Positions 48,333-51,141 of a stretch of 55,033 nucleotides of DNA are shown here, piece by piece (positions within the stretch are counted from its first letter, which is position 1; each line of letters starts with the position of its first letter). Below the pieces are notes generated by a model. The model was not told the origin of the DNA and did not search any database. It saw only the letters and a list, made by a program, of their open reading frames with translations. Source of the DNA: a bacterium (lineage in GTDB: Bacteria > Pseudomonadota > Gammaproteobacteria > GCA-002705445 > GCA-002716945). Location: positions 1-55,033 of the forward strand of contig JAPOHH010000001.1 in assembly GCA_029979505.1 (NCBI GenBank). The letters run 5' to 3'. Position numbers and translations under genes: made by a program.

Positions 48333-48364
48333 AAAAAAAAGCAGCACATAAGTATGTGCTGCTT
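48333..48364 (-). terminator. Intrinsic terminator of the rhodanese operon
   Basis: On the minus strand a perfect 12-bp dyad (arms at 48353-48364 and 48339-48350, around 2 central bases) is followed by eight Ts (48333-48340). This is the clearest Rho-independent terminator in the window. It lies 20 nt after the rhodanese stop and only 12 nt before the mfd ATG. Its AAGCAGC/GCTGCTT core matches the hairpin at 6953-6977. Confidence 0.85.
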
Positions 48365-48383: not shown

Positions 48384-49061
48384 TTATTTTACAGTATTAA
48401 AACCAAGATTTTCCCAGTTTTGCATCCCGCCACGATACCATTTAATTTTATCAGCTGGATAACCATATTTTAATAAACTTTTAATGTTATTTGGTGATTG
48501 TCCGCACCACATACCATTACAGAACATCACAAGTGTCTTAGCGCTATCAAAATAGAATAAACCATTCTGTTCTTTAGCTCCAAATTTAGTAGTCATGACT
48601 TCAGCAATTGATAGTGGATCGGCACCTTTTCTCTCACTTAAAAGAGTCCATGGTAAGTTGACAGCACCAGGGATTGTCCCTTTAGCAACCCAATCAGGTG
48701 TTCTTGAATCAATAATCATGATTTCAGAACCGTCAGGCATTTTTTCACCTTTAGACATCATTACAGCGTAATGAATAATTTCCTGCTCACCAATTGTTTC
48801 AACACCAGGTCTAAGTTGCATAGGTTGAATGCAAAATGGTGGACATGGTCTTGATGTTTTAGCAAATGCAGGGTTTACAGTAGCTCCATTATCTTGATTT
48901 CTCATAATCTTATGTTCACCTACTGAAACAGATAATCCGATTTCTAGTGAATTTGGTCCATCTGCTTTAGATATAGCAACAGGCTTGCCTGCTAAAGCAG
49001 TAAACGATACTAAGACTAAAGAAAATATAGCAACTGATAAAAATTTATTTATTTTAAACAT
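48384..49061 (-). CDS. Exported rhodanese-domain protein with four mature cysteines
   Basis: A signal peptide of about 24 residues (ending TALA-GK) directs this 225-aa protein to the periplasm. A rhodanese domain occupies about 95-220: MIIDSRTPDWVAKGTIPGAV, then the active loop with C181 and C186 in FCNGMWCGQS, then YRGGMQNWENLGF. A second Cys pair, C73 and C77, lies in RPCPPFC. Rhodanese domains carry persulfide sulfur on the loop Cys; the actual donor and acceptor are unknown. The start is the ATG at 49061, because the GGGAGGAG ribosome site lies just upstream and spans the in-frame TTG at 49073. Unlike its flanks it is not extremely AT-rich. Confidence 0.88.
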   Translation of the reverse strand: MFKINKFLSVAIFSLVLVSFTALAGKPVAISKADGPNSLEIGLSVSVGEHKIMRNQDNGATVNPAFAKTSRPCPPFCIQPMQLRPGVETIGEQEIIHYAVMMSKGEKMPDGSEIMIIDSRTPDWVAKGTIPGAVNLPWTLLSERKGADPLSIAEVMTTKFGAKEQNGLFYFDSAKTLVMFCNGMWCGQSPNNIKSLLKYGYPADKIKWYRGGMQNWENLGFNTVK

Positions 49062-49063
49062 AT

Positions 49064-49071
49064 CTCCTCCC
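49064..49071 (-). promoter_or_regulatory. Strong ribosome binding site deciding the rhodanese start
   Basis: The minus-strand sequence GGGAGGAG precedes ATG (49061) by a short AT. It overlaps the upstream TTG alternative start, so the ATG at 49061 is the true start. It is among the strongest Shine-Dalgarno sequences in the window. Confidence 0.8.
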
Positions 49072-49077
49072 AATTAA

Positions 49078-49227
49078 TTATTCACAATCTGGTTCTTCAT
49101 CAGTAGGTTTTTCACCTTCTTCATCAGCAAATATTATCTTTACCTCTGAATGAGTTCCACTGTAAGACGGTTGAGATACTGAAAAAACCGTTAAAGCTAA
49201 GATCAGTAGTAACAAATTCATCTTCAT
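49078..49227 (-). CDS. Small secreted acidic protein with a penultimate cysteine (49 aa)
   Basis: This short gene has ATG at 49227, TAA at 49078-49080 and an excellent ribosome site, AAGGAGGC, 5 nt upstream. The first ~20 residues (MKMNLLLLILALTVFSVSQP) are a signal-like hydrophobic segment. The predicted mature part is about 26-30 residues and strongly acidic (ADEEGEKPTDEEPDCE), with a single cysteine, C48, next to last. I do not recognise the family. It ends 16 nt before the rhodanese start, so the two form an operon closed by the terminator at 48333. A sulfur-carrier or redox-partner role is only an inference from the Cys and the neighbour. Confidence 0.75.
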   Translation of the reverse strand: MKMNLLLLILALTVFSVSQPSYSGTHSEVKIIFADEEGEKPTDEEPDCE

Positions 49228-49232
49228 ATTAT

Positions 49233-49240
49233 GCCTCCTT
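49233..49240 (-). promoter_or_regulatory. Strong ribosome binding site of the 49-aa gene
   Basis: Minus-strand AAGGAGGC is complementary to the 16S rRNA tail and placed 5 nt before the ATG at 49227 (6 nt from the AAGGAGG core). This near-ideal site is the main evidence that the short reading frame is a real, well-translated gene. Confidence 0.8.
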
Positions 49241-49246
49241 GATTAA

Positions 49247-49274
49247 AGAACTAATTGTTCTGTGCCTCATTATA
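49247..49274 (-). promoter_or_regulatory. Promoter -10 and adjoining dyad upstream of the 49-aa gene
   Basis: On the minus strand TATAAT (reverse complement of 49269-49274) lies 41 nt upstream of the start codon. The matching -35 (49292-49297) is a weak TGTCAA at 17 nt. Immediately downstream, at the predicted transcript start, AGAAC-TAATT-GTTCT (49247-49261) forms a 5-5-5 dyad. The dyad could be an operator or a 5' hairpin protecting the mRNA. Confidence 0.45.
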
Positions 49275-49324
49275 ATCTTTTAGACTAAAATTTGACATGT
49301 TTTTATTCGATGATATTCACTGTT

Positions 49325-50164
49325 TTATGCTATATCTACAAAATTCCACATTTTTTTTGCAGAAATTGCGTCCTTTTTAAGTATTCTCTGTTTTATTACA
49401 TTTTGCTTTACTGTGCTGGTAGTATTTGTAGTTCCATGAGAATCAGTTATGAAACTCATACCCCAAAAATTAATTTGTTTATTTGATTGTTTTTCAGTTC
49501 CAATTCGGTTAACTGTTACAACAGGTGTATTTATCATTAAGCTATTAGCTTCAATGACATTAATCCATTTCTTTTTTTCTTCTTTAATTTGAATTTTAGA
49601 ATTATTATATTTACATGTTCCGATAGCAGTTGGACAAATTATACAGTCCACAGCTTTCTTTTTTAGGCTTTGGTAAGCTTGTGAGTGCCATTGATCCCAG
49701 CAGATTAAAATTCCGATTTTAAAATCATCTATAGAGAAGAATTGATAATCATTACTGGGAGTATTAAAATAATATTTTTCCTCATAACATAGCTCTGAAG
49801 GTATATTTTTCTTCCTATATTTTTTTATCACTTCTCCGGATGGATTAAATATAAGTGCTGTATTGTAATATTTATATTTAGACTTCTCAAATATGGTAAC
49901 ACATAAATATATTTTATATTTCGAACTAATGTTTTTTAATGATGTAAGAGATTTTGAATTTAAAGTAATTGCATTTAGAAAATTATTCTTATTCTTTGTT
50001 ATACAAAAATAATCTTGAATAGATAATTCGGGGCAGACAACACATGAATATTTATTTATATTACTCTTATTGATTAAGTAATCTATTTGTTCAATATTTT
50101 TATTCTGATCAGAAACAGGCTTATACTGAAGTATTACTAAATCTAAATATTTGCGCTTAAACAA
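49325..50164 (-). CDS. aguB: N-carbamoylputrescine amidase (carbon-nitrogen hydrolase)
   Basis: This nitrilase-superfamily enzyme would release putrescine, CO2 and ammonia from N-carbamoylputrescine. The catalytic triad is visible as E46 (CPELSIQDY), K118 (KYRKKNIP) and C155 (GILICWDQWH). The Cys motif ICWDQW is the form found in AguB. The 279-aa length is typical. It follows aguA with a 22-nt overlap, giving a two-gene agmatine-to-putrescine path. Composition is extremely AT-rich. The 97 nt downstream, before the small gene at 49227, hold that gene's promoter. Confidence 0.9.
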   Translation of the reverse strand: MFKRKYLDLVILQYKPVSDQNKNIEQIDYLINKSNINKYSCVVCPELSIQDYFCITKNKNNFLNAITLNSKSLTSLKNISSKYKIYLCVTIFEKSKYKYYNTALIFNPSGEVIKKYRKKNIPSELCYEEKYYFNTPSNDYQFFSIDDFKIGILICWDQWHSQAYQSLKKKAVDCIICPTAIGTCKYNNSKIQIKEEKKKWINVIEANSLMINTPVVTVNRIGTEKQSNKQINFWGMSFITDSHGTTNTTSTVKQNVIKQRILKKDAISAKKMWNFVDIA

Positions 50165-51141
50165 TGTAATCCTCCGTTTTCAATTAAAGATGCTTCGCAA
50201 TTAAGATGATATTCATTTTTTCTAAGCGGTATTTTATTTATCCAATTTGATATATTTGATTCATTATTTTTGATTGTTGGATAAATAATACAATTAGAAG
50301 TAATTATAAAGTTTAATTTTGAGTATGGATAATAATTTTCATCTACAAAAAAAGTATCTTCACTATTATGATATATTGGTATAATATTCTTTATAATCTT
50401 ACTTTTTCTCTTAATCAGAATTAATTGATGTTCTAATTCTTTTGCTAAATCATAGTTAATATATTCTTTATCATTCGATGCAAAATATACTATATTCTCG
50501 TCATCAATGAAGCGTATCATATTATCTACATGTCCGCTTGTATCGTCACCTTTTATTTGATCTAAATCTATTGTGTGAAGTTCATTGATAGATAATTTCT
50601 TTTTAATAAATAATAATTTATTAATAACTTCATCAAGAGAGTATATGAAATTATTTTTCTTAAAACATCTAGTATTAGCAATTATAATACCTTTGCTTGA
50701 AAATTCTAAATTGCCTCCTTCTAGAATAAATCCTCTTAAATTAAATTCATTATTATATTGATTTAAAATATATTTAAAATTATTGTCTTTTTTAAAAGGA
50801 TACTTTTCACCATATGCGTTATAGTCAAAATCTAAAATATACTTATCTTTATTCTTTAGATAAATTTTAGGATAATAATCTCTTATCCATATATCATCGC
50901 AGTCATATTTTATAATACTTATATCTTGATTTAATTCTCGAAAAAATGAATCTGTATCAGAGAAATCTTTAGGAATTATAAAGCTTTGTGATACATTATT
51001 CATTGATAAAATATTTGATATGTTTATATATAGTTCTCTCATATCTTTGTAATGTGCAAATCCAGTATGCATAGATGGATAAGTCATAATAATATGATTT
51101 GACTCATAATCAGCAAGCAATTTATTATTCAACTTTGTCAT
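50143..51141 (-). CDS. aguA: Agmatine deiminase
   Basis: AguA converts agmatine to N-carbamoylputrescine, the substrate of AguB. It belongs to the peptidyl-arginine deiminase-like fold: WIRDYYPKI matches the WxRDxGP region (Tyr for Gly), ILEGGNLEF and TSGHVDNMIRF supply the Glu and His/Asp, and C327 in GGLHCLS is the nucleophile. At 332 aa it is slightly shorter than most. It diverges from lolC; the two start codons are about 30 nt apart, so the promoters overlap. Confidence 0.9.
   Translation of the reverse strand: MTKLNNKLLADYESNHIIMTYPSMHTGFAHYKDMRELYINISNILSMNNVSQSFIIPKDFSDTDSFFRELNQDISIIKYDCDDIWIRDYYPKIYLKNKDKYILDFDYNAYGEKYPFKKDNNFKYILNQYNNEFNLRGFILEGGNLEFSSKGIIIANTRCFKKNNFIYSLDEVINKLLFIKKKLSINELHTIDLDQIKGDDTSGHVDNMIRFIDDENIVYFASNDKEYINYDLAKELEHQLILIKRKSKIIKNIIPIYHNSEDTFFVDENYYPYSKLNFIITSNCIIYPTIKNNESNISNWINKIPLRKNEYHLNCEASLIENGGLHCLSANI

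Follow-up and report, generated by a model that had tools for sequence, protein, structure and literature searches.

Analysis of the window (the whole stretch of 55,033 nucleotides studied here, contig JAPOHH010000001.1, from a gammaproteobacterium) points to a two-gene unit in which the gene for a small, acidic and putatively secreted peptide, with a cysteine as its penultimate residue, precedes the gene for a predicted exported rhodanese. The peptide is very probably a dedicated partner of the rhodanese SoxL. Many sulfur oxidizers without SoxCD must relieve SoxY of its sulfane sulfur and bring it to storage or to the cytoplasm. A peptide so short that gene callers can miss it, and tied to the sulfurtransferase proposed for that transfer step, offers a concrete and cheaply testable candidate.

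The two-gene unit in the window

In agreement with the original prediction, the window holds a reading frame of 49 codons with a ribosome site, a signal-like start and an acidic, Cys-bearing tail, which ends 16 nt upstream of the rhodanese ATG (49061) on the same minus strand. The Shine-Dalgarno sites of both genes are strong (Table 1). When compared with the nearest relative, dN/dS is 0.17/0.50 for the peptide and 0.016/0.77 for the rhodanese. The window peptide and the other peptides tried gave no match above cut-off to Pfam or NCBIfam families, including the known sulfur-carrier families SoxY, DsrC and TusA.

The unit had also been credited with a promoter-like region of its own and a strong terminator. 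A terminator-like hairpin does follow the unit, and it scores on both strands. The promoter-like site is kept in the genus, but promoter-like matches in the region are not above those in shuffled sequence (7 against 5.5 +/- 2.0). On the minus strand, at 49325-51141 of the window, a CN-hydrolase gene adjoins a gene of the agmatine-deiminase family, possibly as a putrescine pathway pair, and other family genomes too have these two genes close to the unit.

Table 1. Features of the two-gene unit and its flanks, in window coordinates.
Feature	Position	Strand	Basis
Terminator-like hairpin between the unit and mfd	48339..48364	both strands score	-17.3 kcal/mol, z -4.2
SoxL-like rhodanese gene, product predicted exported, 225 aa	48384..49061	minus	Pfam Rhodanese, soxA-soxK-adjacent kin, fold
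Active-site loop CNGMWC (C181...C186)	48504..48521	minus	at the end of a strand, the canonical place in rhodaneses
CPPFC, the other invariant Cys pair (C73, C77), within the N-terminal extension	48831..48845	minus	alignment; low model confidence there
Shine-Dalgarno GGGAGGAG of the rhodanese gene	49064..49071	minus	direct reading; kept in the genus
Gene of the putatively secreted acidic peptide	49078..49227	minus	49 aa, sequence MKMNLLLLILALTVFSVSQPSYSGTHSEVKIIFADEEGEKPTDEEPDCE; signal-like residues 1-~23; tail EEPDCE
Cys48 codon (penultimate residue)	49084..49086	minus	unchanged throughout alignments A1 and A4
Shine-Dalgarno AAGGAGG of the peptide gene	49234..49240	minus	direct reading
Promoter-like site ATGTCA-18-TATAAT upstream of the unit	49269..49298	minus	kept in five genus members

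A rhodanese of the SoxL-like family

The window rhodanese matches PF00581 (E 2.5e-12) and is, judged by its sequence, a member of the known SoxL-like family. It is 66.7% and 62.9% identical to two proteins encoded next to soxA-soxK (L177, L189) and 45-47% identical to three encoded next to soxXA (L225, L227, L229). The gene order soxA-soxK-soxL is found in two genomes (G026 and G385), and soxA-soxK-rhodanese was read in locus L020. The neighbours of the window gene are mfd and the CN-hydrolase gene, with no sox gene adjoining it, and we therefore label it SoxL-like rather than SoxL.

As had been predicted, the protein has a signal-like N-terminus, with a hydrophobic helix at residues 6-22 of the predicted structure, and two Cys pairs; C73/C77 and C181/C186 are invariant in a 13-row alignment of proteins 50-63% identical to it. 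The rhodanese domain is predicted with confidence and places C181 at a strand end, where rhodaneses keep the catalytic cysteine. A structure search by sequence returned no sequence-close solved structure, and a Foldseek search with the predicted fold had human TSTD1 (6bev, E 3.2e-4) as its top match, a resemblance to single-domain sulfurtransferases.

Conservation of the peptide and its pairing with SoxL

A search of 57 related genomes showed the rhodanese to be 80-96% identical within the family of the window, and the peptide gene is found upstream of SoxL in every family genome with intact upstream DNA. The family peptides share little beyond a hydrophobic start and the tail EP[DE]C[DE]. Outside the tail the peptide diverges fast, most family members being about 28-52% identical to it, and its cysteine is more constant than the remainder, the arm being free to vary in both length and sequence. 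Searched as a degenerate DNA pattern, the tail was found in 20 of the 25 genomes from the order, 11 of 11 among the good ones, and once only in the genome of the window; the reversed control gave no match.

Beyond the family we took the best 80 named rhodanese relatives from a genome collection, a sample that favours near relatives. An acidic peptide with a Cys-bearing tail was found by script upstream of the rhodanese in 74 of these 80 loci, and three further variant tails were recognised by eye (L113, L116, L126) among the 79 loci with upstream DNA, L088 having none. Two loci with upstream DNA, L101 and L108, have no peptide. When all 13,635 open reading frames of at least 30 residues in the 80 loci are considered, 71 end in P[DE]C[DE], and every one shares the strand of the rhodanese and precedes it by no more than 330 nt; the reading of the peptide as a chance frame is rejected on these grounds. 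A scan for secreted acidic-tailed frames made without any Cys requirement found 60 upstream, all with a cysteine within the last nine residues, which excludes circularity from requiring the cysteine, and none on the opposite side of the rhodanese.

The tail makes use of all four Pro, both Cys and all Asp and Glu codons. Codon use being free, selection acts on the protein. For the mature peptides (n=70, under a crude cleavage rule) the median length is 39 and the pI about 4.05, and under the same rule they hold one cysteine in 17 cases, two in 36, three in one and five in 16; the gap to the partner gene spans 15 to 313 nt. As the original prediction anticipated, homologues thus stand next to homologous rhodaneses, and the signal-like start, the acidity and the near-terminal cysteine of this putatively secreted peptide hold across many gammaproteobacterial families, including SUP05-type bacteria.

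Whether the two genes always co-occur was a question put in the original prediction, and they do not: many SoxL genes have no peptide, and one peptide, described below, stands alone. An adjacent peptide is missing at about half of the close SoxL genes and in all 38 tree rows of a more distant SoxL-like group, so that SoxL must be able to function with no peptide gene at its side. Mapping the peptide label onto the SoxL tree takes 12 changes, compared with 53.5 when labels are shuffled; the pairing is therefore old, with gains or losses. A conserved small secreted protein with the pattern VG.PPI..W.Y..F.V.[FY]E also recurs near SoxL in several lineages, upstream of it (L074, L091, L108, L198, L199, L207).

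Association with truncated Sox and Dsr systems

In the genome of the window SoxZ, SoxB and DsrA were found and SoxC was not, the genome being 90% complete. These genes indicate that the host, a marine gammaproteobacterium with a truncated Sox system (no SoxCD) plus cytoplasmic reverse Dsr, would oxidize reduced sulfur. SoxZ is present in 22 of 25 family genomes, close relatives have the order soxX-soxY-soxZ-soxA with a SoxY ending in TIGGCGG, and the peptide-rhodanese pair adjoins soxX, soxY, soxZ or soxA genes in several other lineages.

Among 369 Gammaproteobacteria, SoxL-like genes are found in 84 and go with soxB and dsrA. The 23 peptide-bearing genomes of this sample hold soxB in 22, dsrA in 22 and soxC in one, whereas 31 genomes with a close SoxL and no adjacent peptide, a class that may include misfiled genomes such as G356 (variant tail DPGCD) and G112 (peptide elsewhere), hold dsrA in 16 and soxC in 14. 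The two groups differ by Fisher p-values that ignore kinship (0.0006 for dsrA and 0.0015 for soxC); a phylogeny-aware test of the peptide against soxC and dsrA had two independent pairs on well-supported branches and hence no power.

Variants and other partners of the peptide

The peptide is found beside a second kind of sulfurtransferase. In G161 a second peptide lies directly before a secreted protein of the DsrE family, and in G112, where SoxL has no adjacent peptide, the peptide sits 26 nt before a similar secreted DsrE protein. The association of two unrelated sulfurtransferase families with one type of peptide points to sulfur as their common business. The peptides directly before secreted DsrE-family proteins have EEPEC[DE] tails and are found in two unrelated genomes (L138:1366-2011; L281:1004-1659).

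When a profile was used to look for peptides at other sites in 44 genomes, a single clear new location (G112) came up in addition to those already known. Most matches with E above 0.01 fell within long frames; these weaker matches were discarded, except for a known G161 peptide, whose score of only 0.2 tells us that the profile misses short members.

Several variants were noted. An orphan peptide with the tail EEEEPDCD (L136:1363-1521) has no adjoining sulfurtransferase in G237, a genome with two SoxL-paired peptides as well. A five-Cys subtype (WCE.N...C..WC...P...IC[KQE]EP[DE]C[DE]) occurs at loci of SUP05, Acidiferrobacteraceae and Arenicellales type (L086, L090, L099, L104, L107, L109-L111, L114, L115, L118, L120, L122-L124, L129). 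Locus L205 (G148:C6) has what is likely a lipoprotein form, with an LWGC lipobox and the tail DLEDDC.

A proposed model for sulfur transfer and its alternatives

A role proposed for SoxL is the removal of sulfane sulfur from SoxY, which regenerates SoxY (PMC3368242). The scheme for Allochromatium vinosum includes a small carrier to which no identity was assigned (PMC4213376), and the route of sulfur into the cytoplasm was described in 2023 as "still a mystery" (PMC10451225). We propose a model in which thiosulfate sulfur would be bound on SoxY and its sulfane sulfur removed by C181 of SoxL, perhaps with the help of the other SoxL cysteines. Next, the flexible acidic arm of the peptide would bring its penultimate Cys48 into the active site of SoxL, and the peptide would depart with the sulfur as a persulfide, to be handed over to storage or to an importer. 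Peptides of this type could, in some lineages, be served by a secreted DsrE-family protein.

The reading of the peptide as a sulfane-sulfur carrier working with SoxL has, in our judgement, about an even chance of being right; we infer export, binding to SoxL, the persulfide on Cys48 and the final acceptor. The idea of a sulfur relay, already put forward in the original prediction, gains support, short of proof, from the truncated Sox context and from the peptides paired with secreted DsrE proteins. More tentatively, the peptide may be the missing periplasmic carrier of truncated Sox systems, a new kind of carrier that would consist of a short, mostly unfolded acidic arm, its penultimate Cys being loaded by SoxL or a secreted DsrE protein and the sulfur going on to storage or to an importer.

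The same cysteine could instead let the peptide act on SoxL as a redox partner or a protective cap, with Cys48 forming a mixed disulfide with the SoxL cysteines and passing no sulfur onward. Such a cap would prevent wrong oxidation or a SoxY-free reaction; one conserved cysteine and the tight pairing with a four-Cys sulfurtransferase fit it, the acidic arm suits a docking role, and Sox systems are known to include a separate thiol-disulfide protein, SoxS, that protects SoxYZ (PMC10451225). Peptides beside an unrelated secreted DsrE-family protein, however, are better explained by a sulfur substrate in common than by a cap fitted to SoxL, and 17 of the 70 mature peptides have no second cysteine. 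We consider a cap unlikely.

Rather less probable is a role in docking, in which SoxL would be recruited by the acidic tail to SoxYZ, SoxXA or the membrane, with the cysteine as an anchor and not a carrier. The strongly acidic mature part (median pI 4.05) and the sox neighbours in several lineages are consistent with a scaffold of this type; a cysteine that outlasts an arm free to vary in length and sequence argues against it. We also doubt, to a somewhat greater degree, that the peptide binds metal or is a small component of the sulfur globule envelope. Acidic side chains together with cysteine could hold a metal, and the five-Cys subtype exists, but the one-Cys forms have no conserved second ligand set and the partner genes encode sulfurtransferases. 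Sulfur globule proteins are larger and are not known to be acidic and Cys-tailed, which counts against the envelope form of this explanation. In favour of the latter, relatives bearing SoxL store sulfur in globules (PMC4213376).

A regulatory leader or coupling frame, of which only the translation would matter, is suggested by a short frame placed 16 nt upstream and by the strong ribosome sites in the window, and is rejected as highly improbable and largely refuted, as the tail is conserved at the amino-acid level with free codon use, the gap is variable, the N-terminus is signal-like, and the peptide also precedes DsrE and stands alone.

Comparison with known systems

SoxL of A. vinosum (Alvin_2171) is a periplasmic rhodanese of a truncated Sox system, as the window protein is predicted to be, and its gene follows soxK (PMC3368242), as do those data-set relatives of the window rhodanese that lie directly after soxA-soxK. 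The window gene differs in having no adjoining sox genes and a peptide gene in front. The likeness to Alvin_2171 is one of gene position, the identities given above being to the data-set relatives.

SoxY (SoxYZ), which is present in the family genomes, is a secreted carrier, as the peptide is proposed to be, and resembles it in having a cysteine near the C-terminal end, in the case of SoxY within a flexible arm (GGCGG). It differs in being folded, in having SoxZ as a partner and in its Gly-rich arm, where the peptide has an acidic one and no detectable homology to SoxY. In DsrC the penultimate C-terminal cysteine carries sulfur. The peptide shares this position of the cysteine, whereas DsrC is cytoplasmic and folded, has another tail and gives no sequence match. 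Secreted members of the DsrE/DsrF family (PF02635), a family different from SoxL, are preceded by a peptide of equivalent type in G161 and G112 and are absent beside the window peptide.

No description of the peptide was found in the open-access literature. The original claim that no system of this form had been described appears to hold for the peptide, but not for the rhodanese, which belongs to a known family, nor for the unit as a whole, which would be part of Sox/Dsr sulfur oxidation. SoxL is known, and its small acidic companion appears to be an undescribed component of truncated Sox systems.
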